From: Burkholderiales bacterium
GTDB lineage: Bacteria; Pseudomonadota; Gammaproteobacteria; Burkholderiales; Burkholderiaceae_C
NCBI GenBank assembly: GCA_028868875.1
Contig: JAGWTS010000013.1
Location: 1-33,999, forward strand
Length of the DNA: 33,999 nucleotides
Reading direction: 5' to 3'
Shown here: positions 762-33,266 of the stretch, in pieces
Layout of the letters: every line of letters begins with the position of its first letter
Numbering within the stretch: the stretch's first letter is position 1
The notes under the pieces: generated by a model
The model's input: only the letters and a program-made list of their open reading frames with translations
Told to the model about the DNA's origin: nothing
The model's database searches: none
Position numbers and translations under genes: made by a program

Positions 762-967
762 TCCGGCCGATTCTCCCAAGTCGCCGCAGGACGCTGCGCC
801 GCGATCCGGTCCGGGCCATGGGCCGTTGCGCGGCCCCGGCATCGCCGGTAATAAGGCCGGGTTGGTGCGCTCGCCCTGCGATCGGGGCGCCGGCTTTCGC
901 GGCATCATCGGGTGCCCGCGAACGAGGCGCCCCCGGTGGCGCGGCCGCAGCGCGGGTGCCTGCTTCC
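762..967. promoter_or_regulatory. Divergent intergenic region between MFS exporter and HHK-A
   Basis: These 206 bases separate two divergent genes and should contain a promoter for each. I see no convincing sigma-70 pair and no clear palindromic operator; the stretch is almost as GC-rich as the genes. An open frame from 818 runs into HHK-A, but the extra 50 residues are rich in Ala, Gly and Arg, look non-native and lack a ribosome binding site, so I leave this stretch as non-coding. Confidence 0.4.
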
Positions 968-3900
968 ATGACGTTTTCGCCGGACCCACCCGCTTCGAAC
1001 GATGCCTGCGCCCTGCGGCGCGAGCAATTGCGCCAGCACGCCCTGAACGGCCCGATGGCCGCGGCCGGCGGCTTCGCGCTGGCGGCGATGCTGGTCTGGC
1101 TGCTCGTGCCCGTCGTCGGCCTGCGCCCCGGCCTCGAATGGCTCGGCCTGGTGGCGCTATCGGCGGGGCTGCGCATCGGGGTGGTGCTGGCCTGGCGGCG
1201 GCTGCAGCCGGAGGCTGGCGACGCTTCGGACCGGGCCTGGCTGCGGCGCTTTCGCGCCGGCTTCGCCGCCGCCGGGCTCGCCTGGTCGGCCGCCGTGGCG
1301 CTGGTCTATCCCCCCGGCAACGTGCTCTACGAGTTCCTGCTCGTGTTCCTCATCGCCTCGATCGGCATCGCCTCGCTCACGCTCACGTCCTACGATCGGG
1401 CGGCCTCGATGCTGTTCGCGCTGCCGGCCGTGCTGCCGGCGGCCCTGCGCCTGGCCTTCGGCTCCGAGCAGCCCGCGCTCGTCGCCATCCTGGCGCTGAT
1501 GCTGCCGTACGCCGGCTGGGCCGGCAACCAGGCCCAGCGCGTGATGCGCGAGAACATCATGCTGCGCCTGGCCGAAGCCCGGCGCGCGCAGCACAGCGCC
1601 GAGCTGTTGCGCACGCTGCTCGCCGATGCCGACGGCACGCCGGGCGCGGTGCCGGCCGGCGCCGGCGAGGCCGGCCAGGCGGGCCAAACCGGCCAAACCG
1701 GCCAAACCGGCGGGACCGAGGCCCTGAGCGCCATCGCCCGCATCGTCGCGCGCCAGCATCAGCTCCTCGCCCTGCTCGTGCGGCGCACGCCCGAGGGCTT
1801 CGCGTTCCTCGACGCCGACGGCCGGGTGAGCGACGTCAATCCGGCGCTGTGCGCGATGGTGGGCCTGGCGCGCGAGCAGATCGTCGGCCGTTCGGCGCTC
1901 GAGTTCGTCGCCCCGGCCGAGGCCGAGACGGTGCGCGGGCGCCTGGCCGGAAGCGACGAGGAGTTCGCCGCCGCCGGCGAGATCAGGCTGCTGCGCACCG
2001 ACGGCGGCTTCGTCCATTGCCTGAACCACGCGACCCGCATCCGCGACGCCGACGGCGCGTTGCTGGGCTCGGTCGCGATGTTCACCGACATCAGCGCGAT
2101 CAAGCGCGGCGAGGCCGCGCTGCGCGACTACGAGCTCGTGCTCAACCGCCTGCCCGAGATGGTCAGCCTGATCGATTTCCGCCATGGCCGGTTCAGCTAT
2201 CGCATGGTCAACGACCAGTGGTGCCGGACCACCGGCCTGGCGCGCGAACAGGTGCTCGGGCGATCGCTGGACGAGTTGCTCTCGCTCGCCGATGCCCAGG
2301 AGCGCCGGCGGATGATGCTCCAGTGCCTGCGCCAGCGTGAATCGCGCGTGCTGCGCTCGACCTTCGAGCGCGAAGGCGAGACGCCGCTCCTGATGGAGAC
2401 CTCGTACCACCCGATCGTGGAGGCCGGCGCCCGCGCGCGCAGCGCCATCCTGTTCAGCCGCGACGTGACCCGGCAGGAGAGCGACCGTGCCGCGCTCGCC
2501 ACGAGCCTGGAGAATCTGCGCCTGACGCTCAACACCACCGGCGATGCGCTCTTCGCCTCCGACGTGAGCCGGCCCGACGAGCCGCTGCTGTTCGCCAACG
2601 ACCTCGTGCTGCGGGTGTTCGACATCCCGGCCTCATACGCCGGCCGGCTGACGCCGGATCTGGTCAACGGCCACGCCCGGCGCTTCTTCGTCGACCCCGA
2701 GGCCGAGCTGCGCAAGATCGTCACCGTCATCAAGGCGGGCCTGCCTTACGAGGACCGCATCCGCCTGAACGACGGCCGGGTGCTGCACCGGCGCTGCCTG
2801 CCCTACCGCGAAGGCGGGCGCTACGTCCGGGTCTGGGGTTTCCGCGACGTCACGGCCGAGGAGAATGCGTTCGAGGCCTTGCGCGCCACCGAACACCGCT
2901 ACCGCAGCCTGCTCGACGCCTTCCCCGGCTACATCGCCTGCATCGACGCCGAACTGCGCTACACCTACGTCAACGAACGGCTCGCGGCCCTGCTCGGAAC
3001 CTCGGCCGAGCGCATGGTCGGGCGCGTCATCGGCGAGGCGGCGGGCACCGAGCGCACGCCCCAGACCGAGTCGGCGATCCGGCGCGCCCTGGGCGGGGAG
3101 ACGCTGGTCGTCGAGCGCCACATGCCGGCGCTGCCCACGCGTGCGGCGATGGACCAGCTCGTGACGCTCGCGCCCGGACCGGCGGCCGACGGTGGCGCGG
3201 CGCTGTGCTACGTCTTCGCGACCGACATCACCGCGCTCAAGGCGGCGCAGGCCGCGCTCGTCGGCCTGAAGGAGGAGGCCGAGCGCGCCAACCTGGCCAA
3301 GTCGCAGTTCCTCTCGCGCATGAGCCACGAGCTGCGCACGCCGCTGAATGCGGTGCTCGGCTTCGCCCAGGTGCTGCAGGCGGACCGGGTGCGGCCGCTG
3401 CACCCGGCGCACCGTCCGCACGTCAAGGAGATCGTCGGCGCCGGCCAGCACCTGCTCGAGCTCATCAACGAAGTGCTCGACCTCTCGCGCGTCGAAACCG
3501 GCCAGCTCGACCTCAGCGTCGAGGCGGTGGACCTGGCCGCTCTCGGCGCCGAATGCCTGAGCCTGATGGCGCCGATCGCCCAGACCCACGGCGTGGACCT
3601 CGCCGCGCCGGAGCCGGACGCGGCCGCGCGCTGGGTGCGCGCCGACCGCATGCGGCTCAAGCAGGTGCTGCTGAACCTGCTGTCCAACGGCATCAAGTAC
3701 AACTCCCGCGGCGGCTCGCTCGCGCTCACCTGCACCGCGCTCGGCGCCGAGGTGCGGATCGACGTGACCGACACCGGCCCGGGCCTGGCGCCGCACGAGG
3801 TGGCGCGGCTGTTCCGCCCCTTCGAGCGCCTGAACGCGAACACCACCGGCATCGAGGGCACGGGCATCGGCCTGGCGCTGAGCCAGCGCCTGGTGCGCTC

Positions 3901-4453
3901 GATGGGCGGCGAGATCGGGGTCGAGAGCGAGAGCGGCCGCGGCAGCCGCTTCTGGGTGCGGCTCGCCACCGCGCAGGTGCCCGAGGCGCTGCCCGCAGCT
4001 CGGGCCCCGGAGTCGGCGGCGGCGCAGCCGGTTGAGCCGGTGCCTGCCGTCACCGCCGCGCCCGGCACGCACACCGTGCTCTACATCGAGGACACCGAGT
4101 TCAACATCGCCCTGATGCACGCGGCGATGGAGCATGTGCCCGAGGTCCGCCTCATCGACGCCGAGCTGCCCGAGCAAGGCCTGGCCCTGGCGCAGAGCGA
4201 GCGCCCGACGCTCATCCTGCTGGACATCCAGCTGCCGGGCATCGACGGCTTCGAGGTCCTGCGCCGCCTGCGCGCCGACGCCGCGACGCGCGCGATTCCG
4301 GTGATCGCGCTGAGCGCCAACGCGATGAGCGCCGACATCCGGCGCGCCACCGAGGCCGGCTTCGACGGCTACCTGACCAAGCCGGTCGACCTCGAGCGCC
4401 TCGTCGCGGTCGTGCGCCAGGCCCTGGCCGAAGCGGCGCCGGCCGCGACCTGA
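968..4453 (+). CDS. Membrane-bound four-PAS hybrid histidine kinase (HHK-A)
   Basis: A 1161-residue hybrid sensor kinase. Residues 25 to 200 form several hydrophobic segments without an obvious periplasmic domain. Then come a QTG-repeat linker (about 239 to 247) and four PAS-like domains (about 265-380, 388-502, 515-631, 645-758). The HisKA box FLSRMSHELRTP has the phospho-accepting His at residue 787. The ATPase has the N box LLNLLSNGIKYN, DTGPGLAP and GTGIGLALS. A C-terminal receiver follows with the acidic pair in YIEDTEFN, Asp1086 in LLDIQLPG, Ser in ALSAN and Lys in LTKP, so all receiver catalytic residues are present. There is no HPt, so it would need a separate one; HHK-C and HHK-E nearby have them. 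I chose ATG 968 over the upstream ATG at 818 because the extension is low-complexity. Its stop abuts the stop of the convergent gene at 4454. The signal sensed is unknown. Confidence 0.9.
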   Translation: MTFSPDPPASNDACALRREQLRQHALNGPMAAAGGFALAAMLVWLLVPVVGLRPGLEWLGLVALSAGLRIGVVLAWRRLQPEAGDASDRAWLRRFRAGFAAAGLAWSAAVALVYPPGNVLYEFLLVFLIASIGIASLTLTSYDRAASMLFALPAVLPAALRLAFGSEQPALVAILALMLPYAGWAGNQAQRVMRENIMLRLAEARRAQHSAELLRTLLADADGTPGAVPAGAGEAGQAGQTGQTGQTGGTEALSAIARIVARQHQLLALLVRRTPEGFAFLDADGRVSDVNPALCAMVGLAREQIVGRSALEFVAPAEAETVRGRLAGSDEEFAAAGEIRLLRTDGGFVHCLNHATRIRDADGALLGSVAMFTDISAIKRGEAALRDYELVLNRLPEMVSLIDFRHGRFSYRMVNDQWCRTTGLAREQVLGRSLDELLSLADAQERRRMMLQCLRQRESRVLRSTFEREGETPLLMETSYHPIVEAGARARSAILFSRDVTRQESDRAALATSLENLRLTLNTTGDALFASDVSRPDEPLLFANDLVLRVFDIPASYAGRLTPDLVNGHARRFFVDPEAELRKIVTVIKAGLPYEDRIRLNDGRVLHRRCLPYREGGRYVRVWGFRDVTAEENAFEALRATEHRYRSLLDAFPGYIACIDAELRYTYVNERLAALLGTSAERMVGRVIGEAAGTERTPQTESAIRRALGGETLVVERHMPALPTRAAMDQLVTLAPGPAADGGAALCYVFATDITALKAAQAALVGLKEEAERANLAKSQFLSRMSHELRTPLNAVLGFAQVLQADRVRPLHPAHRPHVKEIVGAGQHLLELINEVLDLSRVETGQLDLSVEAVDLAALGAECLSLMAPIAQTHGVDLAAPEPDAAARWVRADRMRLKQVLLNLLSNGIKYNSRGGSLALTCTALGAEVRIDVTDTGPGLAPHEVARLFRPFERLNANTTGIEGTGIGLALSQRLVRSMGGEIGVESESGRGSRFWVRLATAQVPEALPAARAPESAAAQPVEPVPAVTAAPGTHTVLYIEDTEFNIALMHAAMEHVPEVRLIDAELPEQGLALAQSERPTLILLDIQLPGIDGFEVLRRLRADAATRAIPVIALSANAMSADIRRATEAGFDGYLTKPVDLERLVAVVRQALAEAAPAAT
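1682..1708 (+). repeat. In-frame 9-bp tandem repeat, three units (Gly-Gln-Thr)
   Basis: Three perfect copies of ggccaaacc stand head to tail, in frame in HHK-A, and encode Gly-Gln-Thr three times in the linker between the membrane part and the first PAS domain. Gain or loss of units would keep the frame and only change linker length. Confidence 0.9.
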
Positions 4454-4851: not shown

Positions 4852-7811
<2,960 letters not shown>

Positions 7812-7812
<1 letters not shown>

Positions 7813-10595
7813 CAGGCGCCTGCGTCGGATCCGGGCTCGGGCCGGGTCGCCAGCGCTGCGCCGAGCGCCGCCACCGCGGCCTGCCAGGCGGGCCAGGTTA
7901 CGGCCAGCCGGGTCTCGTCGCCGGCCCGGCATTCCTCTTCGAGCCGTTCGCAGCAGGCGCCCAGCGCCAGGGCGCCGACGGTGCGCGCGGCGGACTTGAG
8001 GCGGTGCGCGGCGGCCCCGAGCCGCACCAGGTCGGCGTCGGCGCGGGCCCGGCTCAGGTCGCGCACGTGTTCCGGCAACTGGGCCTCGAACTTGCGCAGC
8101 AGCGATTCGATCAGCGCCGGCTTGTTGCCGACGTAGCGGCGCAGCTCGTCCACGCGCAGCACGGGCAGGTCGGCCGCCGCGGGCGCCGGAGCCAGGACGT
8201 CGGGCTCGACCCCGGGTTCGGCCTCGGCCTCGGCGGGCGGCAGCGCCGCCAGCAGGCGCGCCAGCACCGCGTCGAGCCGGGGCAGGCTCACCGGCTTGGT
8301 CAGGTATTCGTCCATGCCGGCGCCGATGCAGCGCTCGGCCTCGCCCTTCATGGCGTTGGCGGTGAGGGCGACCACCGGCACCCGGCGCGTGCCGCCGCGG
8401 CGCGCTTCCTCGTTGCGGATCGCCTCCACGAGCTGGTAGCCGTCCATGCCCGGCATGTGCAGGTCGGTCAGGACCAGGGCATAGGGCTTCGCGAGCCAGC
8501 GCTCGAAGGCCTGCGCGCCGTCGACCGCGAGGTCGGCCTCGTGGCCCAGGGCCTCGAGCTGTTCGAGGATCACCGTCTGGTTGATCGGGTTGTCCTCGGC
8601 CACCAGGATGCGGCGGCCGGCGCCGCGCTGCGGCCGCTCGGCCGGCTCGGACGGCGGCTCTGCGGCAGGCAGGTCGGCAGCGCCCGGCGCCCGCTCGACG
8701 GACGCAAGCTCGATGCACGCCAGCAGGCTGCGCTGCGTCAGCAGGTGGGTGTCCGACTGGGTCAGGTCGCTCGCCATGCGGCGCGGGCGCCGGCGCCGGC
8801 CTGCGCCCAGCACGAGGTGCTGGATCGGGGGCTCGCCGGGGGCCGCCGCCTGCAGCCGCGCCGCGGCATCGCGCCAGGGCTGGGCGCCCGGCATGGCGTC
8901 CGCGCCCAGGGACCAGATCCACAGCCGCGCCGGCCGTGCCAGCAGCAGGCCGGCCGCGCCGCGTTCGACGCTGTCCAGCCGCTGCAGCGCCGCGCCGGCG
9001 GCGCTGAGATGGGCGGCGACGTCGTCGGCGGTTTCGCCGCGGCCGACGAGGGCGCAGGCCAGGCCCGCCAGCGGCAGGCGGCCCGGGTGCGGCCCGGCCT
9101 CGTCCAGGGGTTCGAAACCGAGCTGGACCTCGAAGCGCGCACCGCGCCCGGGCTCGCCCTCGGCGACGAGGCTGCCGCCCATCAGCTCGACCAGCCGGCG
9201 CGTGATCACCAGGCCCAGGCCGGTGCCGCCGTAGCGCCGCGTGGTCGAGGCGTCGGCCTGGGTGAAGGGCGCGAACAGGCGCTCGCGGGTGGCCTGGTCC
9301 AGGCCGATGCCGTTGTCGGCGACGCGCAGGGCGATCCAGGCCTTGCCGGCTTCGCGCCGCGCGAGCAGGGCGCGCACCCGCACCGAGCCCGGGTGGTCCA
9401 GGCCGCTGCAGAACTTGACCGCGTTGTGGGTCAGGTTGGTCAGGATCTGGCGCAGGCGTTGGGCGTCGCCGCGCATCAGGCGCGGCAGGGCCGGGTCGAC
9501 GAACAGGCGCAGGTCGACGTCGCGCTCGATCGCGAACTGTTCGAGCAGCGTGCCCACGCCTTCGACCACGTCTTCGATGCGGAAGGGCTCGGGCGCCAGT
9601 TCCATGCGCCCGGCCTCGATCTTGGAGAAGTCCAGGATGTCGTTGAGCAGCCCGAGCTGGGCCTGCGCCGAATCGCGCACCACCTGGGCCATCTTGTGGC
9701 GCCGCGGGTCGAGCCCGGACTGCAGCAGCAGGTCGGCCATGCCGATCACGCCGTTCATCGGCGTGCGGATCTCGTGGCTCATGTTGGCGAGGAACTCGCT
9801 TTTGGCCTGGTTCGCGGCCTCGGCCCCCTCCAGGGCGTGGCGCAACTGGGCGGTGCGCTCGGCGACCGCCTGTTCGAGCTCGTCGCGCTGCGCCGCCAGG
9901 CGTGCGTCGCGCTCGTGGACCTGCTCGATCATCGTATTGAAGCCCTGGGCCAGGCGGTCGAGCTCGGCGATGCGGCTGCCCTGGACGCGCAGGCTGTAGT
10001 CGCCGCCCTGCGAGACCTCGTCCATGAGCCGGCCCAGGCCGCCAAGGGGTTCGAGCACCGAGGGGTTCAGGCGCTCGACGAGGCGCCGGCTCACCGCCAG
10101 GGCCAGCAGCGAGGCCCCGAACGCGACCGCCACTTCCCAGGCGGTCTGGCGGTAGAGCCCGGCCAGGCTCACCTCCAGCACCAGGCGGGCGCGGCCGGCG
10201 GGCGCGCCGTCGATCGGCTGGACCACGGTCAGCGCGCGCGGCCGCAGCTGCAGCGGCGCCTGCGGATCCAGCGCGCCCGGCGCGGCGCGGCCGTAGGCGG
10301 CAAAAGGCTTGCCGCGGCCGTCGAGCAGGGTGGCGGCGATCACCTCGGGCGAATGGCGCAGCGATTGCAGCAGCTCGGACGCCGCCTTCGGGTCGTCGAA
10401 GCTGAGGGCGGCGGAGGCGTTGTCGGCCAGCACCCGGGCCTGGACGCGGCTCGCGTCGACGAGCGCGAGCAGGCCCACGCCGAAGCTGCCGAGCACCACC
10501 GCCAGCGCCACCACCCCGACCGCCGCGCCAAGCGCGATGCGGTTGATGCGCCGCAGCTGGCGTGCCAGAGAAATGCGCGGCGGCGCCGGGCTCAT
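7812..10595 (-). CDS. CHASE8-like HAMP hybrid histidine kinase with HPt (HHK-C), partner of YfiR
   Basis: A 927-residue sensor. TM1 (about 20-45), a short periplasmic region (46-150) and TM2 (about 152-172) resemble the YfiN/TpbB input region: compare [18 protein letters not shown] and the following residues with the same place in YfiN. A HAMP region (about 175-230) follows. HisKA has [14 protein letters not shown] with His274. The ATPase has [20 protein letters not shown] and GTGLGLVIT. Residues 510-640 look like a receiver that has lost its Asp. A complete receiver follows (VAEDNPINQ, Asp711 in LTDLHMPG, Thr in ALTAN, Lys in LTKP), then a C-terminal HPt with His864 in [10 protein letters not shown]. 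The ATG overlaps the stop of the YfiR gene (ATGA). A full His-Asp-His relay can therefore run in one chain. Its N-terminus is paralogous to that of HHK-E, about 57 of 99 residues identical by hand alignment. Confidence 0.9.
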
Positions 10596-11185
10596 TGCCT
10601 GACCTCGGTGGCCAGGCGCAGCAGCTTGGAGCTGAGGTTGAGGTGGGCGGTGCGCGCCGCGCGCAGGTTGGCCTCGAAGCGCACGCGGCCGTCGGCCACG
10701 AGCATGTTGACCATGACCCCGGCCTGCATCGCCCCCGGGCTGTCGGCAAGCAGCAGCACCGGCCGGGCGTGCAGCGCCTCGACGATCTGCGCCAGGCGGT
10801 CGATCGCCGCGGCGGCGACGAAGACGACCTCGCATTCGCGCAGCGACGCGCCCGGGGCGAGCCGGCGCAGGTCGATGGCACGGCCGCCCACGGTCTTGCC
10901 GCGCAGCAGGTCGGCCTCGCTGCCGAAAGGGTCGGCGCCGACGATGCACAGCACGATCGGGCCGGCGGAGGCGTCGGCGGGCCACTCGGTGAACTGGATG
11001 AAGTTGTAGACGAACGCCGCCTTCAGGCGGTATTCGGGCAGGTCGTCGGCGCGCGCCGGCAGCGCGGCCAGGAGGGCCCACGAGGCCGCGGCCAGCAGGC
11101 CGAGCGCGCGCAGCAGCCACTGCGTCGGCCTCGGAGGTCCGAGTCGTGCGGGCACCGGCCGGGTGGAGGGGGGAACGGACTGCAT
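10592..11185 (-). CDS. YfiR/DUF4154 family periplasmic regulator
   Basis: A 197-residue exported protein. A hydrophobic segment (about 23-43) ends in the cleavage-site-like ARA at residue 46. The mature part opens with [19 protein letters not shown], the hallmark N-terminal motif of the DUF4154/YfiR family. Two cysteines, Cys80 in VLCIVG and Cys118 in RECEVV, sit where family members usually have them. In Pseudomonas, YfiR is a periplasmic repressor of the CHASE8 diguanylate cyclase YfiN. Here the gene lies 8 bases after a TonB receptor and overlaps the start of a CHASE8-like kinase by four bases (ATGA), so the likely target is HHK-C rather than a cyclase. No YfiB-type lipoprotein is visible. 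The ATG at 11185 was chosen because it follows closely on the receptor stop and gives a normal signal peptide. Confidence 0.88.
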
Positions 11186-11193
11186 TCCCGGAC

Positions 11194-13209
11194 TCAGAAT
11201 CGGTAGACGAGCTTGGCGCGCAGGCTGCGGCCGTCCTGCGCGATCGCGTTCTGCCAGTTGTTGGGCGAGGCCGGCTGGGCCGCGCGCGAACCGAAGACGT
11301 TGTCCAGGTACAGCGAGAGCTCGAGCCCCTCGACCCACTTGTCCGCGAGCAGGCCGGCGTTGGCGAGCCAGGCGCCGGGCAGGCTGCTGCCGTCCAGCGT
11401 CAGGCGCGCGCTCGTGTACTGCAGCTCGGCCGAGGCCTTCAGCGCGGCGCCCGGGAGCGGCCCCTCCAGGTTGAGCTTGGCGAGCCAGCGCGGCGAATTG
11501 GCAAGCGCCGTGCCGTCGCTGCGGCGCGCGCTCTGGACGCTCAGGCTGCCGCGCAGGCTGGCGCCCGAGGCGAAGCCCTGGCGCGCCGACAGCTCCAGCC
11601 CCTGGGCCGTGGTGCCCGGCCCGTTCTGGTACTGCGTGAGCGCGCTCGCGGGATCGGTCCCCTGGGTGATGAGGTCGCGCAGCAGCCAGCGGTAGGCCGA
11701 GCCGCGCAGCGCGAGGTCGCGGCCGACGCGCCGGTCGAGCACCAGCTCGAGGGTGTCGATCGACTCGACCCGCAGATCCGGGTTCGGGGCCTGGCTGACG
11801 TAGCTGTAGTCGCTCTCGAAGACGTTGGGGGCGCGGTAGGCGCGGCCGAACAAGGCCTTCCAGGTGGTGTCGGCGTCGGCCTGCCAGGCCAGGCCGACGC
11901 GCGGGCTCAAGGCCGGGTGCTCGGTGCTGTTGTCGTCGTAGCGCAGGCCCAGCGTCGCCGCCAGCGTCGGCGTGATCGACCACTCGTCCTGGGCGTAGAC
12001 CCCGGACCGCCAGCCCGAAACCGGAATGCGGACGTCGAGCGCGGGCGCCTGGGTGTCGGCGAAGGCCTGGTCCTGGCGCGAGTTGACCTGGTACTCGACG
12101 CCGGCCATCAGCTTGTGCCCGGCCCAACCGGTGTAGAGCGCCTGCAGCTCGGTGCCGTGCCAGGCGCTGGTGGCGGTCTGCAGCGTCGGGTCGCCCGCGT
12201 AGGTGAAGGGCGCGCCATAGTTCTCGCCGCCGACGAAGACCCGCGCGGAGAGCTGGAGCGCGCCGTCCAGCCGGTCGTCGTGCCAGCGCAGCTGGCCGAG
12301 CAGGTGGCGGTCGCGCTGGTACTGCCCGGGGGTCAGCGGGTCGCTCAGGTAGGTGCCCAGAGGGTCGTTCTTGAGGCGGTCGCCGTACGAGAACTCGAAG
12401 GCCCAGGGGCCGGCCGTGGCGCTGGCGAAGAGCTGCCAGTCGCGCTCGCCGTCGAGGCCGCGCGCGACCCCCGAGAGGCCGGTGGCGCCGAAGTCCAGCG
12501 CCAGGTCCTGGCCGCGCGAGTTCAGGCCCGAGGCCGAGAGCAGCAGGTCGACCCCGTTGTCGAGCTTGCGGCCCCAGCTCGCCCGCCCCTGGCGCGTGGC
12601 CTGGGGCTGCTCGTCGGCGGCGGCGAGTTCGGCCCCGCCCAGGCTCGCGCCCTTGCGCGTGACGACGTTGATGACCGCGAACATCGCGTTCTGGCCGTAG
12701 ACCGCGCCGCCCGGGCCGGCGATGTATTCGATGCGCTCGATCAGGTCGAGATCGAGCGGAAAGTCGTGGCCGAGGTAGGCCTGGTCGAACACCGCGTCGT
12801 TGACCCGGTTGCCGTCGATCGTCAGCAGCACCCGCGTGTTGAAGTCGCCCGGCACCCCCAGGCCCCGGGTGCCGAGGTACTCGTACTGGCGGTCGTAGCT
12901 GCGGTAGACGCCGGGCAGGCTGGCCAGGGCCTCGGCCAGCGAGCGCCAGCCGAAGGCGCGGATCTCCTGGCGCGTGATCACGCTCACCGCGGCCGCGACC
13001 TCGCTCTGCTTCTGCTCGTACTTCGAGGCGCCGACGACCTTGACCTCGAGCAGCTGCTCCAGGCTCATCGAGGTCGGGTCCGCGGGCTGGGCCGCGGCCA
13101 GCGGCAGCGCCGCCACGGCGGCGGCGGCAAAGGCGATCCAGCGCCGCAGCGGGTGCGCGCCGGGGCTCATCGGCCGGCGCGGCCGGCGCGCCTCGCTGGT
13201 TTGCTTCAT
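11194..13209 (-). CDS. TonB-dependent outer-membrane receptor
   Basis: A 671-residue outer-membrane receptor. A signal peptide (hydrophobic about 24-40, ending near AAAQ) is followed by the segment [15 protein letters not shown], typical of the N-terminus of one TonB-receptor group. The plug domain follows ([47 protein letters not shown]). The rest is a beta barrel of amphipathic strands, and the protein ends in Phe (AKLVYRF), the usual assembly signal. There is no N-terminal FecA-type signalling domain and no sigma/anti-sigma pair nearby. The start overlaps the stop of HHK-D (ATGA), and the YfiR gene begins 8 bases after the stop. Placing a receptor inside a kinase operon suggests it admits or senses the ligand read by the downstream YfiR and HHK-C. 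The ligand is unknown. Confidence 0.9.
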
Positions 13210-15029
13210 GCGCTTCTCCGGTCGGGTTCCTGCGTCCCCGGCCCCGGGGTCGACTCCGCGGCCAGCATCGACAGCAGCTCGCTCAGGCGGCGCAGGTCCT
13301 CGGGCAGTTGCAGCGTGGCCCGGCTGCCTTCGAGGCGCGGCGGCGGCGGATCGTCGGCCGCGGCATGGGCCGCCAGCAGCAGCACCGGAATCGAGCTCGT
13401 GCCGGCGCGCGCGCGCAGCGAGGCCAGCAGCGCCGGGGTTTCGGTGTCGGCGCGCTGCAGGTCGAGCAGGATCGCCCGCGGTCCGGCCTCGAGGGCGCGC
13501 TCGAAGCCGTTCGAGGCGCTGGTCTCGGTCCTCAGCTGCCAGTCGGGGTGGGCCGTGAACAGGCCCTTGACGTGCTTCAGGTTCTGCCGATCCTGGGCCA
13601 GGTACAGGACTCCGAATCCGGCCGCTTGCGGCGGGGGGGGCCGGTCCGCCGCGGGCTCCTTCGCTTCTTCCGCCACGGGCAGGTCGATCCAGAAGGTCGA
13701 GCCCTCGCCGAGGCGGGATTCCACGCCGAGCTTGCCCCCCATCAAGGCGGTGAGCTGGTGCGACAACGCGAGCCCGACGCCCATGCCGTCGACGCCGGAG
13801 TCCTCGGCGCCCAGGCGTTCGAAGATGTTGAAGAGCTTGCCGATCTGCGCCGGCGCGATGCCGCGGCCGGTGTCGGCCACGCGCAGGCGCAGGCGGCCCT
13901 CGGACGCGACCGCGTCGACGACGACGCGGCCGTCGTCGCGGTTGTACTTGGCGGCGTTGGACAGCAGGTTCACCAGCACCTGGCGCAGCCGGGTCGGGTC
14001 GGCGAGGACGCAGGCGCCGCCGGGCAGGGCGTCGACGACGCGGATGCGGCGCGCCTGCAGCAGCGGCTCGACGTAGCCCAGGGCCTCGCGCAGCACCGCG
14101 TCGACGCGCACCGGGGCGCGCTCGACCGTGAGCCGGCCGGCCTCGATGCGGCTCAGGTCCAGCAGGTCGTCGATGAGGGCCAGCAGATGCTGGCCCGCGC
14201 GGTGGATGCTGCCCGCGGCGGCGCGCTGGCGCGGCGGCAGCGCTTCGAGCAGCAGCAGCTCCGAGAAGCCGAGGATGGCGTTCATCGGCGTGCGCAGCTC
14301 GTGGCTCATCGAGGTCAGGAACGCCGACTTGGCGGTGCTCGCGATCTCGGCCTCGCGGCGCGACTGCTTCAGGTCCAGGGCCTGCTGCTCGAGCTGCCAG
14401 GTCTGGCGCAGGGCGTCCCAATGGGCCTGGTGCTGCAACTGGCCGCTGCGCACCGAGAACATGAAGAAGGCGAGCGCAAAGGCCAGCAGCACCCAGCTCG
14501 ACTCGCCCGGCACGAACAGCGGCAGGCCGACGAGGCCGACCGGGCAGACGATGAGCGCGTAGGCGACGAGCAGGCGCAGGCGCGGCACCGCGGTGGCGAT
14601 GCCGCCCGAGGTGATGCCCACCGTGGCGATGACCGCGACCGCGGCGGCGCCGTCGAGGCGGCGGATCGAGGCCAGGGTCCAGACCAGGAAGGCGCACCAG
14701 GCGAGCGCCGAGCCGAGGTAGACGGCGCCGATCTCGCGCTCGGTGCGCTTCGGGTCGTGGTCGCGTCCCGCTGCGGTGCGCGCGGCCAGCGCAATGCGCC
14801 CCGCCACGAGGCCGGCGAAGACGAGCGCGAAACCGCCCCAGACCGCGGGCTGGGCGATCAGCCGCGGCGAGAGCGCGACCACGCCGGTGACGCCGACGAG
14901 GTAGAAGAACCCGCCGAAGCGCATGCGCTGCGCCATGTCGCGGTTCGTGTCGCGCAGGATGTCGACGCCGCGCGGCGCCTCGGTCTCGGGCGCCGGCGGT
15001 GCGGGTCGCGTTGCGGCAGCGCGGGGCAT
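13206..15029 (-). CDS. Membrane hybrid histidine kinase with degenerate receiver (HHK-D)
   Basis: A 607-residue kinase. Residues 38 to 190 form about six hydrophobic helices without a large periplasmic domain, then a coiled-coil-like stretch (about 195-230). HisKA has FLTSMSHELRTPMN with His243. The ATPase has LVNLLSNAAKYN, DTGRGIAP and GMGVGLALS, so the kinase core appears intact. The C-terminal 110 residues align with the receiver of HHK-A but are decayed: the acidic pair (YIEDTEFN in HHK-A) reads YLAQDRQN, the Ser/Thr position (ALSAN) reads LLAAH and the Lys (LTKP) reads LQLP. Asp523 is kept in LLDLQRAD. It probably cannot work as a normal phospho-receiver. The gene overlaps the TonB receptor (ATGA) and follows the GGDEF-EAL gene by 18 bases. 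A run of eight C in the coding strand (plus 13633-13640) encodes Pro-rich linker just before the receiver. Confidence 0.88.
   Translation of the reverse strand: MPRAAATRPAPPAPETEAPRGVDILRDTNRDMAQRMRFGGFFYLVGVTGVVALSPRLIAQPAVWGGFALVFAGLVAGRIALAARTAAGRDHDPKRTEREIGAVYLGSALAWCAFLVWTLASIRRLDGAAAVAVIATVGITSGGIATAVPRLRLLVAYALIVCPVGLVGLPLFVPGESSWVLLAFALAFFMFSVRSGQLQHQAHWDALRQTWQLEQQALDLKQSRREAEIASTAKSAFLTSMSHELRTPMNAILGFSELLLLEALPPRQRAAAGSIHRAGQHLLALIDDLLDLSRIEAGRLTVERAPVRVDAVLREALGYVEPLLQARRIRVVDALPGGACVLADPTRLRQVLVNLLSNAAKYNRDDGRVVVDAVASEGRLRLRVADTGRGIAPAQIGKLFNIFERLGAEDSGVDGMGVGLALSHQLTALMGGKLGVESRLGEGSTFWIDLPVAEEAKEPAADRPPPPQAAGFGVLYLAQDRQNLKHVKGLFTAHPDWQLRTETSASNGFERALEAGPRAILLDLQRADTETPALLASLRARAGTSSIPVLLLAAHAAADDPPPPRLEGSRATLQLPEDLRRLSELLSMLAAESTPGPGTQEPDRRSA
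13633..13640. repeat. Homopolymer of eight G (C on the coding strand) inside HHK-D
   Basis: The run encodes part of four prolines in the linker between the ATPase and the degenerate receiver. A slip of one base would remove the receiver while leaving the kinase core intact. Confidence 0.85.
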
Positions 15030-15047: not shown

Positions 15048-17177
15048 TCAGGCGGCCTGCATCGAGGGCCACTGCCGCTGCAGCAGCGCGGGAATGGCGG
15101 CCGCGGCGACGGGCCGGCTGAAGTAGAAGCCCTGCAGGCAGTCGCAGCCCATCGTGCGCAGCGCCGCGGCCTGCTCGAGGGTCTCGACGCCTTCGGCGGT
15201 GACGCGGATCGCCAGGCTCTTGGCCATGGCCAGGATGGCGCGCACGATCGCCGCGCTCTCGCCTTCGCGGAACAGGCCGTCGACGAAACAGCGGTCGATC
15301 TTGAGGTTGTTGATCGGCATGCGCGTGAGATAGGCGAGCGAAGAATACCCGGTGCCGAAGTCGTCGAGCGCGATGCGCGCGCCCTGGGCCCGCAGCGCCT
15401 GCAGCGCGGCGTGGGTGGCCGCGGTGTTCTCCATGACCGCGCCTTCGGTGACCTCGAGCTCGAGCAGCTCGGGCGCCAGGCCGGTCTGCTGCAGGGTCTG
15501 CAGCACCCGTGCCGGCAGGCCCGGGGCGTTGAACTGCAGCGGCGACAGGTTCACCGCGATGCCCACGCGCGGCCCGCTGCGGTTCCAGCGCGCGGCCTCG
15601 GTGCAGGCGGTCTCGAGCACCCAGTGGCCCAGGCGCTCGATGAGGCCGTTCTCCTCGGCGCGCGGGATGAAGTCCAGCGGCGAGACCAGGCCGCGCGTCG
15701 GGTGGGTCCAGCGCAGCAGCGCCTCGACCGACTCGATCCGCCCCGAGGCGAGGTCGACCTGCGGCTGGTACACGAGGTGGAACTCCTGGCGGTCGAGAGC
15801 GCTGCGCAGGCTGTTGTCGAGCTCCAGCCGCTCGAGGATGGCCTGGGTCAGGCCGATGTGGTAGGTCTGGGCGTTGTTGCGGCCCGAATTCTTGGCGTGG
15901 TACATCGCCGTGTCGGCGTGCTTGAGCAGGGTCGCGGCGTCGCCGCCGTCTTCCGGAAACATCGCGATGCCGACGCTCGTGGTCAGCGTGATCTCGCGCC
16001 CGTCGATGACGAAGGGCCGGCGCATGGCGTCGCCGATGCGCCGCGCCACCGTCATCGCGTGCTCGGGCTGGCTGAGCCCGAGCAGCAGCGCCGTGAATTC
16101 GTCGCCGCCCAGGCGCGCGAGGTCGAACTCGGTGTCCTGCGCCTCCTGCGCCTGCTGCGCGGCGGCGCCGTGGGCGAGCAGGTCCGAGGGCCGCAGGCAT
16201 TCGCGCAGGCGGTCGGCGGCGCGCTCGAGGATCAGGTCGCCGGTGGCGTGGCCCAGGGTGTCGTTGACGCCCTTGAAGCCGTCCAGGTCCATGTACAGCA
16301 CCGCCAGCCGCATCGTCGCGTGCCCGGCGCGCCGGATCTCGCGATCGACGCGCTCGACGAAGGACTGGCGGTTCGGCAGCCCGGTGAGGCTGTCGAAGTA
16401 GGCGAGGCGGGCGATCCGGGCCTCGGCGAGCTTGCGTTCGGTGATGTCGCGCGCGAGCAGGATGAAGCGTGGCGTCTCGCCCTCGGCCACCGCCTTGCGC
16501 GAGGCCGAGATCTCGAACCAGCCCGGCCCCTGGGCGAGCGCGAGTTCGAACTGCTCGCCGTTGGACGCGCCCTGTTCCAGCGCGGCGCGCATCGCCGCCA
16601 TGCAGGCCTGGGCCGCCTTCGGCGGCAGGACCTCGTCGACCCGGCGCCCGGCCAGGTCCTGCAGCGGCAGGGCCAGGGGGTTTGCGCGCGCAGCACGCAG
16701 TTCGATGCAGCGGCCGTCGAGGTCGAGTTCCAGGAGGACGTCGGGAATGGCGTTGAGGATCGCCGCCGTGCGCGCCTCCGAGGCGCGCAGGTCGAGCATC
16801 GCCTGGTGGCCGCGGAACAGGTAGCGCACGCGGTGGCCCATCAGGGCCCAGTTCACGGGCTTGGAGACGAAGTCGGTGGCGCCGTGCTCGTAGGCGGCCT
16901 CGACCGAGGCCAGGTCGTCCATGCCGGTCACCATGACGATCGGCAGCAGCGCGCCGACTTCCGCGCGCAAGGTGCTGCAGACCTCGAAGCCGTCCAGGCC
17001 GGGCATGTCGACGTCGAGCATCACCATGTCGGCGGGCTCGGCGCGGAACTGCGCCAGGGCCTCGCGCCCGCCGCCGGCCGTGCGCACCGCGAAGCCGGCC
17101 CGCACGAGCGCGGCGCGCATGATCAGCAGGGCGTCGGCGTCGTCGTCGACGACCAGGATCGTGAAGCGCGGCTTCAT
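15048..17177 (-). CDS. REC-PAS-GGDEF-EAL cyclic-di-GMP synthase/phosphodiesterase
   Basis: A 709-residue cytoplasmic response regulator. The N-terminal receiver has LVVDDDADA, Asp55 in MLDVDMPG, Thr in MVTGM and Lys in VSKP, all intact. A PAS domain (about 135-270) ends in [10 protein letters not shown]. The GGDEF domain has the intact motif GGDEF at 357-361. The EAL domain has EAL at 485-487 plus [29 protein letters not shown] and AEGVET, the residues expected for an active phosphodiesterase. So both activities are possible. A RPSD sequence that would be the inhibitory site is separated from the GGDEF motif by an extra stretch of about 20 residues. The start overlaps the stop of HHK-E by four bases (ATGA), making it the most likely phosphate acceptor of that kinase's HPt. 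It is the only dedicated output protein in the sensory cluster. Confidence 0.93.
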
Positions 17178-20158
17178 GGTGCGGCCAGGGCGGGGAGCGC
17201 GCGCAGCTCGGCGAGGGCGCGCTCGAGTTCGCGCTGTGCCGGTGCGAGCAGGGCGCGCGCCTCGTCGAGGCGGCCTTCGCGTGCGCATTTCTCGAGCTCG
17301 GCGCAGCAGCGGGCGAGGTGTTCGGCGCCCAGGTTGTAGGCGCTGGACTTGAGCTTGTGGGTGGCCTGGGCCAGGGCCTTCGCATCACCCGCGGCCAGGC
17401 CCGCCGCGGCGCGCTCCAGATGGGCGCCGGCCGAATCCAGGAACGAGGCGACGAGGCTGTGGACCAGTTTGCCGCTGCCCGAGTCGTCGAGTTCGCGCAG
17501 CAGGTCGATCGCGGCGAGGTTGATCGCAGCCGCATTGGCCGGCGGCGGCGCGGCGGCTGGGGCGGACGCGGGCGGTGGCGCGGGGGCGGGAGCCGGAGCC
17601 GGGCTCGGCGCGGCCGGCGCAGCATGAACCGCTTGGGCCGGCGTGGCCGCCAAGGGCGACGAGGCTGCCGCGGGTGATGAGGGTGATGAGGGTGATGAGG
17701 GTGACGAGGGCGCCGGGGCTTGAGGCGCGGCGGCGGCAGCAGCAGCCGCGGACTGGGCCTCACCCGGGGCCGCCGGGGCGGGCTCGAGCCAGTTGACGAG
17801 CTTGGCCGCGAGCGCGGCGCGCGAATAGGGCTTGGCGATGAAGCCGTTCATCCCCGCCGCGAGACAGGCCTGTTCGTCGCCGCGCATCGCGTTCGCGGTG
17901 AGGGCCACGATCGGCAGCGCGGCGCCGCGCTCGGCGGGCAGCTGCCGGATCTCCGCGGTGGCCTGGAAGCCGTCCATGACCGGCATCTGGCAGTCCATCA
18001 GCACGAGGTCGAACCCGGCCTCGCGCACGCGCTCGACGGCTTCGGCGCCGTTGTGGGCGACCGTGCATTCGAGCCCGAAGCTGTCGAGCATGGCCAGCGC
18101 CACCGCCTGGTTGATGAGGTTGTCCTCGACCAGCAGGACGCGCCCGCGCAGGCGGATCTCGGGCCCGGAAGGGGCGCTGCGGCGCGGGCCGGCGGCGCGC
18201 GCTTCGGGGGTCGCGAAGCCGGCCAGCGCCTCGGCCAGTTCGGCGCGCCGCAGCGGCTTGGCGATCCAGCACCGGAAGCCGGCTTGCGCGCGCGCCTCCT
18301 CGTCCACGCCCGAGCGCGCCGCGCCGAGGCCGATGAGGGGGGTGGTGGCGATCTCGGTGCGGCCGCGGATGGCGTGCGCCAGCTCCAGGGCGCTCATGCC
18401 CGGCAGGTCCATGTCGATCAGGGCCAGGCGGTAGCGGTCGCCCGCGGCGGCGCCGCGCTTCAAGGCGTCGAGGGCCTGGCTTGCGCCGTCGACGCCCTGC
18501 ACCCGCATCCCGCGGCCCATCAGCTGCTCGCCCAGGATCTCGCGCCGGGTCGCATTCGCGTCGACCACCAGCACCCGCTGGCCCGCGAGCCCGGCGCTCG
18601 CCGCGGCCGGGCGCCCCGGAGCGCGCGCCAGCGCCAGGCGCAGCTCGACGATGAACTCGGCGCCGGCGCCCGGCTCGCTGCGGACCGCGATGCGGCCTCC
18701 CATCAGGTCGAGCAGGCGGCGGCAGATTGCCAGCCCCAGCCCGGCGCCGCCGTACTGGCGCGTGGTCGAGCCGTCGGCCTGTGAGAAGTGGTCGAAGATC
18801 CGCGCCTGCGACGCCGGCGCGATACCGACCCCGGTGTCCTTGACGCTGATGCGCAAGGCGGCATCGGCCGCCGTCTGCGCGGTCAGCTCGACCGTGACGA
18901 CGACCTCGCCCACCTCGGTGAACTTGAGCGCGTTGCCGACCAGGTTGGAGATCACCTGGCGCATGCGCAAGGGGTCGCCGCGCAGTTCGAGCGGGGCGTC
19001 GTGGGGCACGATGCGCAGCGCCAGCTCGATGCCCTTGGCCTGCGCCGGCAGGGCGAACATCGACACCGCGTCCTCGATCGCCTCGCCGAGGTCGAAGTCG
19101 AGCGCTTCGAGCTCGAGGCGGCCCGACTCGATCCTGGAGAAGTCGAGGATGTCGTTGATCACGCCCAGCAGATGGCGTCCCGCGGTCTGCACCCCCTGCG
19201 CCCATTCGCGCTGGCGCGGCTGGAGCTCGCTGCCGATGAGCATCTCGTTCATGCCCAGCACCCCGTTCAGCGGCGTGCGGATCTCGTGGCTCATGGTGGC
19301 GAGGAACTCGCTCTTGGCGCGGTTGGCGGCTTCGGCGGCTTCCTTCGCGAGCTGGAGCTGGGCCGTGCGCGCAGCGACCTCCTGTTCGAGGTGGTCGCGG
19401 TGCGAGGCCAGCGCCTTGTCGCGCTCGTGGATCTGTTCGAGCATCGCGTTGAAGCCGTCGCCGAGCTTGCGCAGCTCGCGCACGGCGCTGCTGCCGGCGC
19501 GCACGCTGTAGTCGCCGGCGTCCGAGACCTGCGCCATCAACTCGCCCAGGCCCTGCAGCGGGCGCTCGAGCGAGGCGTTCAGGCGCCGTACCAGAACGCG
19601 GCTCACCACCAGCGCCAGCGCCGACGCCAGCGCCGTGATCGCCACGTGCAAGAGGGTCCAGCGGTACAGCGGGCGCAGGCTCACACCCAGCTCCAGCGTG
19701 CCGCCGGCCGGCGTCTCGCCCGGAATGGCCTGGCGCACCGTGAGCGAGCCGGGCCGCAGCACGAGCGCGCGGCCGAGATCGGCCGGCGCCGCCGGCGCCG
19801 GCGCGCCGGCGCGCACGTAGCGCGAGAAGGGCCGGCCGTTGCGGTCGTACAGGGTGGCCTGCAGCACTTCCGGCGCGTTCTGCAGCGAGCCCAGCGTGTC
19901 GGCCGCGGCCTTGACGTCGCCGAAGGCGAGCGCGGCCGTCAGGTTCTGCGCCACGACCCGGGCCTGGACCTGGTGGGTGTCGATCATCGCGAGCAGGCCC
20001 AGGCCGAAGCTGGCGAGCATCACGACGAGCGCGACGACCCCGACCGCCACCCCGAGCGAGAGCTGGCTGATGCGTCGCAGCAGCGTGTTCAGCGAAATCT
20101 CCGACGCCGGCGCGCCGCGGGCGGCTTCGGGGCGGGTCGGGGAGGGCGGGAGCTTCAT
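17174..20158 (-). CDS. CHASE8-like HAMP hybrid histidine kinase with two receivers and HPt (HHK-E)
   Basis: A 994-residue sensor of BarA/LuxQ-like layout. TM1 (about 30-55), a short YfiN-like CHASE8 periplasmic region (58-165) and TM2 (about 170-190) are followed by HAMP. HisKA has [14 protein letters not shown] with His291. The ATPase has [21 protein letters not shown] and GAGLGLAIC. Receiver 1 (about 525-650) keeps Asp582 and Lys (IAKP), but its acidic pair reads VVDAN and the Thr site reads LIGLG, so it is partly decayed. Receiver 2 has LVEDNLINQ, Asp722 in LMDCQMPV, Thr in ALTAN and Lys in IAKP. A Pro/Ala/Ser linker of about 90 residues leads to the HPt with His934 in [12 protein letters not shown]. 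The ATG overlaps the stop of a small upstream frame and the TGA overlaps the GGDEF-EAL start, both ATGA. Confidence 0.92.
17673..17708 (-). repeat. In-frame 9-bp tandem repeat, four units, in HHK-E linker
   Basis: Four copies of ggtgatgag (plus strand; the last has one change, ggtgacgag) encode a repeated Ser-Ser-Pro on the minus strand. They lie in the Pro/Ala-rich linker between receiver 2 and the HPt. Unit number changes would alter the reach of the HPt without breaking the frame. Confidence 0.88.
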
Positions 20159-20382
20159 GGGGGTCCGCGCCGCGGGTCGGCGTTCGGGAGGGCGGGGCGG
20201 GGGGCTGGCAGGTTGTGCATTGTCGGGGCCCGGCGGCTGATGCGCAGCATCAGCAGGCGTTCGAGAGGCAGGTGCAACAGTTGGTCCAGGGTCGTCGGCC
20301 AGGCACTGGCGGGCAGGGCCAGCGCCGCGGCGAGCAGCCAGCGCCAGGCGCCCGCGCGGCCCGGCGCGGCGCTTGCCGCCAA
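20155..20382 (-). CDS. Small putative exported peptide, TonB-receptor N-terminus-like (TTG start)
   Basis: A 75-residue frame with a TTG start at 20382, preceded by AGGG five bases upstream. It reads as a signal peptide (hydrophobic core [13 protein letters not shown]) followed by TTLDQLL and [12 protein letters not shown], then a short Pro-rich tail. This pattern resembles the first mature residues of TonB receptors; compare [14 protein letters not shown] in the receptor at 11194. There is no ATG in this frame near the start, which is why it is easy to miss. Its TGA overlaps the ATG of HHK-E (ATGA), the same junction type as elsewhere in the block. It could be a real small periplasmic partner or the remnant of a receptor gene whose barrel was lost. 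The start codon and expression are uncertain. Confidence 0.5.
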
Positions 20383-20622: not shown

Positions 20623-21480
20623 ATGTTGATCGAAGTCAGGCGGCGCGCTTTCGTCCTCGGCCTCGGGTCCGCGCTGACCCTGCGGGCGCGGGCCGGCGAC
20701 GAGGCCTCGCCCACGACCCTGGCGGTCGTGCCGCAACTCACGCCGATCCTGGCTTTCCGCCGCTGGTCGCCCTTGACGGCGCGGCTCGAGTCGGGCAGCG
20801 GGCAGCGTCTGAAGCTGCTGCTGTACAACCGCATCGGCGATTTCGAGGCGCAGCTGCTCGATGGCGTGCCCGACCTCGCGTACCTCAATCCGTACCACAT
20901 GGTGATGGCGCACCGCGCCCAGGGCTACCGGCCGCTGGTGCGCAGCGGCAGCGAAAAGCTCTCGGGCCTGCTGCTGGTGCGCGCCGACGGCCCCGTGCGC
21001 AGCCTGGCCGACCTGCAGGACCGGCGCGTGCTGTTTCCTTCGCCCAACGCTTTCGCCGCCTCGCTGCTGATGCGCTCGATGCTCGAGCAGCAGGAGAAGA
21101 TCCGGATCCAGGTCGAGTACGTCGGCAACCACGACAACGTCTACCGCCGCCTGGTCCTGGGCGACGCGGTGGCCGGCGCCGGCGTGCGTGCGACCTTCGA
21201 GCTGCAGCCGCCCGAGTTGCGCGCACGCCTGCGCGTGCTCTACGAGACGCCGCAGATGCTGCCGCATCCGCTTGCGGCGCATCCGCGCGTGGCGCCGGAG
21301 CGGGCCGAACGCCTGATCGAGGCGCTGCTCGCCCTGAACGCCGATGCCGCAGGTCGCGAACTGCTCGCCCAGGTGGAGATGCCTCAGGTCGTGCGCGCCG
21401 ACTACGAGCGCGACTACGCGCCGCTGGCGCGCCTGGGCCTGGAGCGTTACGTCGTCGGGCCGACCCACCCCGCCTCATGA
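20623..21480 (+). CDS. PhnD-like periplasmic binding protein paired with HHK-F
   Basis: A 285-residue exported protein of the phosphate/phosphite/phosphonate binding-protein family (PhnD type, type-2 periplasmic binding fold). The N-terminus VRRRAFVLGLGSA has a twin-arginine-like motif and a short hydrophobic segment. The mature protein shows the family pattern: LAVVPQLTP, NRIGDFEAQLLDGVPDLAYLNP broken by short loops, then SLADLQDRRVLFPSPNAFA, where the ligand backbone loop is expected, and VEYVGNHDNVYRRLVLGDAVAG. No PhnC or PhnE transporter gene is next to it. Instead a hybrid kinase starts 34 bases downstream, so the protein probably acts as a soluble sensor that presents its ligand to HHK-F, as other binding proteins do for LuxQ-like kinases. 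The ligand is unknown. Confidence 0.85.
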   Translation: MLIEVRRRAFVLGLGSALTLRARAGDEASPTTLAVVPQLTPILAFRRWSPLTARLESGSGQRLKLLLYNRIGDFEAQLLDGVPDLAYLNPYHMVMAHRAQGYRPLVRSGSEKLSGLLLVRADGPVRSLADLQDRRVLFPSPNAFAASLLMRSMLEQQEKIRIQVEYVGNHDNVYRRLVLGDAVAGAGVRATFELQPPELRARLRVLYETPQMLPHPLAAHPRVAPERAERLIEALLALNADAAGRELLAQVEMPQVVRADYERDYAPLARLGLERYVVGPTHPAS

Positions 21481-28733: not shown

Positions 28734-28779
28734 TTCGAAGTTGGTTTTTCATCCACCCTGGAACGACGAGGAACGAAGC

Positions 28780-30333: not shown

Positions 30334-30348
30334 GACGCGGAGCCGGCC

Positions 30349-32243: not shown

Positions 32244-32249
32244 AGCAAG

Positions 32250-33262: not shown

Positions 33263-33266
<4 letters not shown>
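32250..33266 (+). CDS. dppD: ABC importer ATPase, DppD type
   Basis: A 338-residue cytoplasmic ATPase that drives the importer. It has Walker [10 protein letters not shown]-loop [12 protein letters not shown], signature FSGGMRQR, Walker B LLIADEPT and the switch His in LLITHNLG. The C-terminal oligopeptide-transporter extension contains the four-Cys-like region [14 protein letters not shown], which in this family can carry an iron-sulfur cluster. There is an insert of about 30 residues ([18 protein letters not shown]) after the Q-loop, longer than in standard DppD. Its stop overlaps the start of the next ATPase (ATGA). Confidence 0.93.

Follow-up and report, generated by a model that had tools for sequence, protein, structure and literature searches.

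Gene run and features of the locus

The window analysed here, i.e. the whole stretch of 33,999 nucleotides from a Burkholderiales bacterium (assembly GCA_028868875.1, contig JAGWTS010000013.1, positions 1 to 33,999 of the forward strand), carries on its minus strand a close-packed run of seven genes: HHK-B, P0006, P0007, a TonB-dependent receptor, a YfiR-like protein, the hybrid kinase HHK-C and P0003. The initial annotation, centred on positions 7812-11185, had described the YfiR gene and HHK-C as a YfiN system with its output swapped. The adjacency of YfiR to a CHASE8 kinase exceeds chance and recurs in relatives, and at this locus it extends to a TonB receptor encoded directly upstream. The features needed below are the following, with domains assigned by Pfam where no other basis is given.

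17174-20158, minus strand: HHK-B (P0008), the other CHASE8 hybrid kinase of the run, which has two receivers and an HPt domain and keeps AALAF.
15048-17177, minus strand: P0006, REC-PAS-GGDEF-EAL protein, candidate output towards cyclic di-GMP (c-di-GMP).
13206-15029, minus strand: P0007, histidine kinase (HisKA-HATPase) with a hydrophobic N-terminal half.
11194-13209, minus strand: TonB-dependent receptor (P0004 extended by four N-terminal residues).
10592-11185, minus strand: P0002, YfiR-like periplasmic protein of 197 aa (PF13689).
7812-10595, minus strand: HHK-C (P0001), hybrid kinase of 927 aa with the order CHASE8-HAMP-HisKA-HATPase-REC-HPt.
4852-7812, minus strand: P0003, PAS hybrid kinase, last gene of the run.
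10254-10451, minus strand: CHASE8 periplasmic domain of HHK-C, residues 49-114.
10398-10400, minus strand: codon of HHK-C F66, the last residue of AALSF, equivalent to AAVVF of YfiN (alignment A3).
10676-10678, minus strand: codon of YfiR F170, equivalent to P. aeruginosa F162, the proposed YfiN-facing Phe (residue comparison).
13021-13071, minus strand: N-terminal element of the TonB receptor, 17 residues, in the interval between signal peptide and plug (profile).
20155-20382, minus strand: mini open reading frame (mini-ORF), 75 codons, TTG start, an uncertain gene with a segment resembling the receptor element.

The overlap of a YfiR/DUF4154 gene with the kinase gene, noted initially, is borne out, the TGA of YfiR and the ATG of HHK-C lying in a common ATGA. 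Overlaps of this type also join HHK-B to P0006 and, if the ATG at 13209 is used, P0007 to the TonB receptor, and HHK-C and P0003 share one base. The receptor gene is separated from the YfiR gene by a gap of 8 bases. The REC-PAS-GGDEF-EAL protein that had been assigned to the same operon is indeed found in the run.

The YfiR-like protein, the CHASE8 kinases and the proposed contact residues

P0002 matches PF13689 (YfiR/DUF4154) with an E-value of 5.8e-43 and 146.9 bits (cut-off 24.9), this being the single DUF4154 match in the genome assembly. In terms of NCBIfam families, it passes NF053591, the TOL_0243 YfiR-like family (138.1 bits, cut-off 125), and stays below NF053586, the classical sequest_YfiR family (42.1 bits, cut-off 85); its relation to the solved YfiR 4yn7 is detected at E 7.5e-7. 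At E<=1e-10, NF053591 recognises each of the 37 YfiRs in alignment A2, and the classical model 20 of them. The Cys71-Cys110 pair is present in P0002 as C80 and C118.

The periplasmic region of HHK-C, for which CHASE8 similarity had been proposed, passes the CHASE8 profile (residues 49-114, E 1.5e-15, 57.7 bits, cut-off 27), with the match covering profile positions 9-74 of 102 only. It is followed in Pfam by HAMP (180-227), HisKA (264-329), HATPase_c (376-493), Response_reg (663-777) and Hpt (832-913), and no GGDEF domain was found by Pfam in HHK-C. The suggested replacement of GGDEF by a kinase with HPt thus stands, but Pfam sees one receiver and not several. In the region from about 510 to 650, Pfam matches nothing at E<=1; it probably holds a degenerate first receiver, since the NCBIfam BarA model, which spans residues 147-894 (368.9 bits, cut-off 890 missed), runs through it. 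HHK-C shares the kinase-receiver-HPt order of unorthodox hybrid kinases of the BarA type, differing from BarA in its CHASE8 sensor and in its score below the BarA cut-off. A sequence search of the N-terminal part against the PDB gave nothing useful. The AlphaFold model of residues 8-245, built from 69 sequences, reached a mean predicted local distance difference test score (pLDDT) of 94.1, and its comparison with the PDB gave two matches at E<=0.001, which are integrative models of WalK-YycH and McpB, followed by the sensor domains of WalK, DctB and CitA at E 0.0025 to 0.007. The predicted fold of the periplasmic domain is in line with an extracytoplasmic sensor of the PAS/Cache type.

HHK-B, missed by the initial annotation, has no adjoining YfiR gene, and its CHASE8 domain is also above the Pfam cut-off (57.3 bits). 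These are the two CHASE8 matches above cut-off in the assembly, in addition to a weak one on contig C567; among the CHASE8-kinase N-terminal parts of the window and 68 relatives, Pfam finds CHASE8 in 68 of 69. Because AALAF is retained in HHK-B and its gene belongs to the run that contains YfiR, the two kinases may share a single YfiR. A comparable layout was found at one other locus (L037), where a CHASE8 kinase precedes YfiR by some genes in the same direction.

Replacement of the YfiN output is in itself not new, because the change from GGDEF to kinase is already found in Malone et al. 2012: according to the text of that paper (PMC3375315), distant Yfi operons often swap GGDEF for GGDEF-EAL, HPt or sensor histidine kinases, a hybrid kinase of Thauera MZ1T being, like HHK-C, among the output-swapped YfiN homologs, and yfiB is missing from almost all output-swapped operons. 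The same text proposes the Phe of AAVVF in YfiN as the YfiR site. The equivalent Phe of the AAxxF motif was found in 103/105 CHASE8 domains adjacent to YfiR (75/76 kinases, 9/9 GGDEF-EAL proteins, 15/16 GGDEF proteins and 4/4 unclassified), as opposed to 10/26 without adjacent YfiR. These 26 include the proteins of 20 loci from the stronger YfiR-less matches, and about as many weaker ones, with domains harder to align, were left out. For nine of the 10 Phe-bearing non-adjacent proteins, the genome encodes a YfiR nearby or at another place; as some CHASE8 domains without Phe also lie in YfiR-bearing genomes, the presence of Phe follows adjacency to YfiR. In alignment A3, comprising the window and 68 of 74 kinase stretches, F66 of HHK-C is the sole invariant column.

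On the YfiR side, residues were counted at 77 of the 78 kinase-type loci of the census described below, omitting sequences matched over <100 residues. The position of F170 holds Phe in 67/77. For positions contacting YfiB, taken from the text of PMC4887326, some have changed: R60 is Arg in 11/16 GGDEF-type YfiRs and E, D or T in 54/77 of the kinase type, and P178 is Pro in 11/16 and 3/77, respectively. Likewise, the positions of Cys145 and Cys152 hold Cys in 12/16 GGDEF-type YfiRs, with Cys outside the five commonest residues in the kinase type. The locus resembles YfiBNR/TpbB/AwsXRO of Pseudomonas in its YfiR-family protein, its CHASE8-HAMP membrane protein and the proposed contact Phe on both sides, and differs in R60, P178 and the second disulfide, in having a kinase phosphorelay in place of GGDEF, in the TonB receptor upstream, and in the lack of any OmpA-like (YfiB-like) gene, as judged by a motif scan over 2.5 kb on the same strand. 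Since the CHASE8-HAMP input half and the Phe residues of the proposed YfiR-YfiN contact are kept, gating of HHK-C by YfiR, as put forward initially, is likely. What that description of a YfiN system with swapped output missed was the outer-membrane half, where a TonB receptor stands for YfiB.

Several further observations concern kinases and other genes of the window. The window has six HisKA matches in about 20 kb, and 818-4453 (plus strand) encodes one more hybrid kinase, which carries several PAS domains. A PhnD-type binding protein (20623-21480, plus strand) adjoins a PAS hybrid kinase (21515-23902, plus strand), the periplasmic part of which is weakly CHASE8-like by a self-grown profile and not by Pfam, with Thr at the position where YfiR-linked kinases carry Phe. 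Finally, 24163-33266 (plus strand) holds an IclR regulator and an oligopeptide-type ATP-binding cassette (ABC) transporter (binding protein, permease, ATPase), with hydantoinase/oxoprolinase-like genes, recognised by eye, between them.

TonB receptors at YfiR loci and their N-terminal element

DUF4154 was present in 41/200 genomes of the order and in 70/299 of the phylum. For the census, 60 of the 62 places in the order were taken, the remaining two being the window itself and one with internal stops, which was omitted; of 82 new places in the phylum 60 were taken and 22 left, and one of those taken (L152) gave no YfiR under the self-made profile. Output classes were derived from profiles grown on the window proteins, with Pfam checks for A3 and a few proteins only. 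Including the window, the 120 loci comprised 78 with a CHASE8 kinase, 16 with CHASE8-GGDEF, 10 with CHASE8-GGDEF-EAL, one fusion of YfiR and kinase, and 15 without a CHASE8 neighbour. At L093 in genome G015, a YfiR domain, a kinase and receiver domains share one 881-aa frame; this genome has seven DUF4154 matches.

A TonB receptor gene in the same orientation as YfiR and no more than 3.5 kb from it was found at 67/78 kinase, 3/16 GGDEF, 7/10 GGDEF-EAL and 11/15 no-CHASE8 loci. The difference between kinase and GGDEF loci gives a Fisher p of 3e-7, although the census p-values are a guide only, because the loci are related by descent. The OmpA-like gene shows the opposite distribution (kinase 1/78, at L135; GGDEF 12/16; GGDEF-EAL 0/10), these counts being approximate because the calls were made by the motif N..L[SA]..RA and not by Pfam. 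Counted by family, at least one TonB-linked locus occurs in 28/29 kinase families and at least one OmpA-linked locus in 8/9 GGDEF families. A separate REC-GGDEF protein is encoded on the same strand within 6 kb at 13/78 kinase loci, 0/26 GGDEF or GGDEF-EAL loci and 2/15 no-CHASE8 loci. Chance proximity of TonB and kinase genes was considered and rejected: this genome has 9 plug and 76 HisKA matches, and the 70 HisKA matches outside the contig of the window are all more than 3.5 kb away from any plug.

A scan of named genomes gave 79 loci among the best 80 matches, from Burkholderiales, Nitrosomonas, Nitrospirota, Acidobacteria, Verrucomicrobia, deltaproteobacterial groups and others. TonB stands beside YfiR at 70/79 of them, a figure biased by a query built from ten YfiRs that were mostly TonB-linked; 46/79 are of the kinase type (37 of them with TonB), 24/79 have no CHASE8 beside YfiR, and the proposed contact Phe is present in 59/59 CHASE8 domains. 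Aromatoleum evansii (L253) shows the TonB-YfiR-CHASE8-GGDEF-EAL form, and Geomonas limicola (L216) has the kinase with no TonB gene next to YfiR. Pairs of TonB receptor and YfiR with no CHASE8 <1.5 kb from YfiR were seen in Nitrosomonas (L202, L204, L211, L214, L215, L217, L221-L223, L227, L229, L230, L233, L240, L241, L244 and L262).

Receptors linked to YfiR carry a short element ahead of the plug, about LSLEELMNIEVTSASK, with the consensus L-x-x-L-S-L-E-[EQ]-L-M-N-I-E-V-T-S-[AV]-S-[KR] in the interval after the signal peptide. With a 22-column profile, it scores >3 bits in 84/87 YfiR-linked receptors; 41 of the 87 served for training, and the untrained ones match in 43/46. The element is also found in 84/90 TonB open reading frames of the named-genome set and in 0/8 other receptors of this genome, where the signal peptide leads, by eye, directly to a TonB-box-like segment. 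Earlier pattern counts (27/90; 55/68 with a recognisable plug and 19 more without; 41/87) were discarded as too strict or mis-anchored. Among the 150 receptor matches listed from the 200 genomes of the order (search model A1 of 34 rows, with weaker matches outside the 150), 47/53 element-bearing receptors lie within 5 kb of YfiR, as compared with 1/97 without the element. Model A1 itself was built with about 22 of these 47 receptors; excluding them leaves 25/31.

Three of the six element receptors that are not linked to YfiR (G020, G024 and G150) come from genomes without a DUF4154 match. At two loci (L183 and L188), both in genomes where DUF4154 was not matched, each tandem pair of TonB receptors includes one with the element and is followed by genes for ABC_sub_bind and sCache_4-GGDEF proteins. 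Such loci may represent a parallel system in which a different periplasmic protein acts as intermediary. At L184 (3675-7200, minus strand), again in a genome without DUF4154, the element receptor is followed by a protein with an HD_5 domain, which we take to be of the HD-GYP kind. The unlinked receptor of L187 adjoins a REC-PAS-GGDEF-EAL gene, and no neighbour of the c-di-GMP type was found by self-made profiles at L185 and L186.

The mini-ORF upstream of HHK-B, which it overlaps by ATGA, has a signal-peptide-like start (by eye) and a 23-residue segment similar to the receptor element, scoring 3.6 bits to the element model, a value reached in 4 of 5000 shuffles. As a widespread partner of CHASE8 proteins it was rejected, as a pattern search of 20 YfiR-less CHASE8 loci (L173 being without upstream sequence) found no comparable mini-ORF upstream of CHASE8. 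It may be the relic of a lost receptor.

Proposed signalling route and alternatives

In regard to the way these proteins may work together, we favour, at a probability of roughly 0.55, a three-layer surface signalling module in which the signal would run from the TonB receptor to YfiR, from YfiR to the CHASE8 kinase and further into a phosphorelay. The outer-membrane receptor would sense or import a ligand, and its state would be passed on to the periplasmic YfiR-like protein. YfiR would dock on the conserved Phe in the CHASE8 domain of HHK-C, and probably of HHK-B, locking one signalling state; by analogy with YfiN, this control would be repressive. Drawing off of YfiR by the receptor's N-terminal element, or alternatively an alteration of YfiR upon ligand binding, would then change the state of the kinase, and phosphate would travel over HisKA, REC and HPt to a response regulator, with P0006 as one candidate. 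A c-di-GMP branch through P0006, as suggested initially, is no more than plausible. A more specific version, which we hold as tentative, is that the element (about LSLEELMNIEVTSASK) replaces YfiB, captures YfiR in the hydrophobic pocket for YfiB F57 and so, across several phyla, releases CHASE8 kinases or GGDEF-EAL proteins from YfiR; here, one YfiR would attend to two kinases, with the mini-ORF perhaps a free decoy peptide for HHK-B.

The module is favoured by the domains and the gene overlap, the opposite distributions of TonB and OmpA-like genes, the retained Phe residues, the shift of R60, P178 and the second cysteine pair, and the element largely confined to YfiR-linked receptors. Several results weigh against it. 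No TonB gene was found on the same strand within 3.5 kb at 11/78 kinase loci, nor at 9/79 loci of the named set, and 6/53 element-bearing receptors among the matches listed are away from any YfiR. One Phe-bearing CHASE8 protein (L155, genome G101) comes from a genome without a DUF4154 match, the whole motif is loose in kinases ([AS][AS]xxF in 38/76), and only 29/77 kinase-type YfiRs have Glu at E163, a residue on the YfiN side. Not all YfiB-contact positions have changed either: L181 is kept in 72/77 kinase-type YfiRs, R171 is still Arg in 33/77, and H177 varies in both groups, being His in only 5/16 of the GGDEF type. The AlphaFold model of L058, a relative whose YfiR and CHASE8/kinase N-terminal part are in frame across one stop and were modelled as one chain, has well-predicted domains (pLDDT 93.1) but a predicted template modelling score (pTM) of 0.56, which gives no confident placement of the two parts. 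In addition, no response regulator of the transcription-factor kind was identified in this analysis. Coinheritance is on the favourable side: at 75 loci with all three proteins, the distance correlation was 0.68 for YfiR-CHASE8 and 0.54 for YfiR-TonB, and where a genome had several trios (12 genomes) the true partner was recovered in 21/25 and 23/25 cases, respectively (expected 12). This indicates that the trios are inherited together and does not bear on contact.

NCBIfam has family names covering all three kinds of protein (NF053590, TOL_0244 TonB receptor; NF053591, TOL_0243 YfiR-like; NF053592, YfiR-like-associated kinase), so curators have probably seen the trio, a grouping read from the family names. 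P0002 belongs to its family; on the unfavourable side, P0004 (145.2 bits, cut-off 645) and P0001 (105.4 bits, cut-off 194) miss theirs, as does P0008 (118.3 bits), and HHK-C differs from the trio kinase by its receiver and HPt. The word 'TonB' does not occur in the text of PMC3375315 (without Table S4), and no publication apparently treating a link between YfiR and a TonB receptor was found within the limited literature searched. The new point thus seems to be the input end, where a TonB receptor with its own short element seems to replace YfiB in many bacteria.

Other explanations could account for the same arrangement. The TonB receptor could only import a small molecule, for which YfiR would be the binding protein that signals to the CHASE8 kinase, with no touch between receptor and YfiR. 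Such ligand delivery, a possibility that we rate well below the module, would agree with the YfiR crystals described in the text of PMC4887326, in which vitamin B6 and Trp occupy the same pocket as YfiB F57, with the pairing of TonB receptors with a substrate-binding protein and an sCache_4-GGDEF protein at L183 and L188, and with the PhnD-type binding protein next to another hybrid kinase in the window. By itself, it leaves unexplained the conserved N-terminus that marks YfiR-linked receptors and the changes of R60 and P178. It is rather doubtful, and less probable than ligand delivery, that the element is unrelated to YfiR, fitting for example a particular TonB/ExbBD or secretion step, with co-occurrence reflecting an inherited operon. 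The element receptors far from YfiR, three of them in genomes without DUF4154, would be expected then, but receptors sit before or after YfiR and also in tandem, at loci from several phyla, and 4/6 of the unlinked ones adjoin genes of the c-di-GMP type (GGDEF, REC-GGDEF-EAL or HD_5).

The initial model, in which YfiR gates HHK-C as in YfiN, taken together with a redox or other envelope signal as input and with a TonB gene that is merely a passenger or a target transcribed along with the kinase, appears the least probable of these. CHASE8 and its Phe are conserved, the Cys71-Cys110 pair is retained, and the kinase loci without a TonB gene nearby are in its favour. On the other hand, the TonB linkage in nearly all kinase families and the confinement of the element largely to YfiR-linked receptors are hard to square with a passenger.

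Surface signalling of the FecA/FpvA type relies on an STN domain, an anti-sigma factor and a sigma factor. The module proposed here would likewise start a signal to the cytoplasm at a TonB receptor, with YfiR and a kinase replacing the anti-sigma and sigma factors; no STN match was found in P0004 by Pfam at E<=1. If true, it would represent a further TonB-dependent surface-signalling route, separate from the STN/anti-sigma route. It also provides a lead for OmpS of Alcanivorax dieselolei, a TonB receptor known here via secondary citations, which is reported to start alkane sensing and to which TOL_0244 shows 40.3% similarity (PMC6304351, PMC5174103).

The proposal yields predictions at the level of single residues and a short peptide, namely F66, F170 and the receptor element. 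YfiBNR has been studied as an envelope-stress switch. In the sampled genomes, the YfiR-CHASE8 core is more often joined to a kinase and to an uptake receptor of the outer membrane, and therefore some TonB "transporters" may also be sensors.

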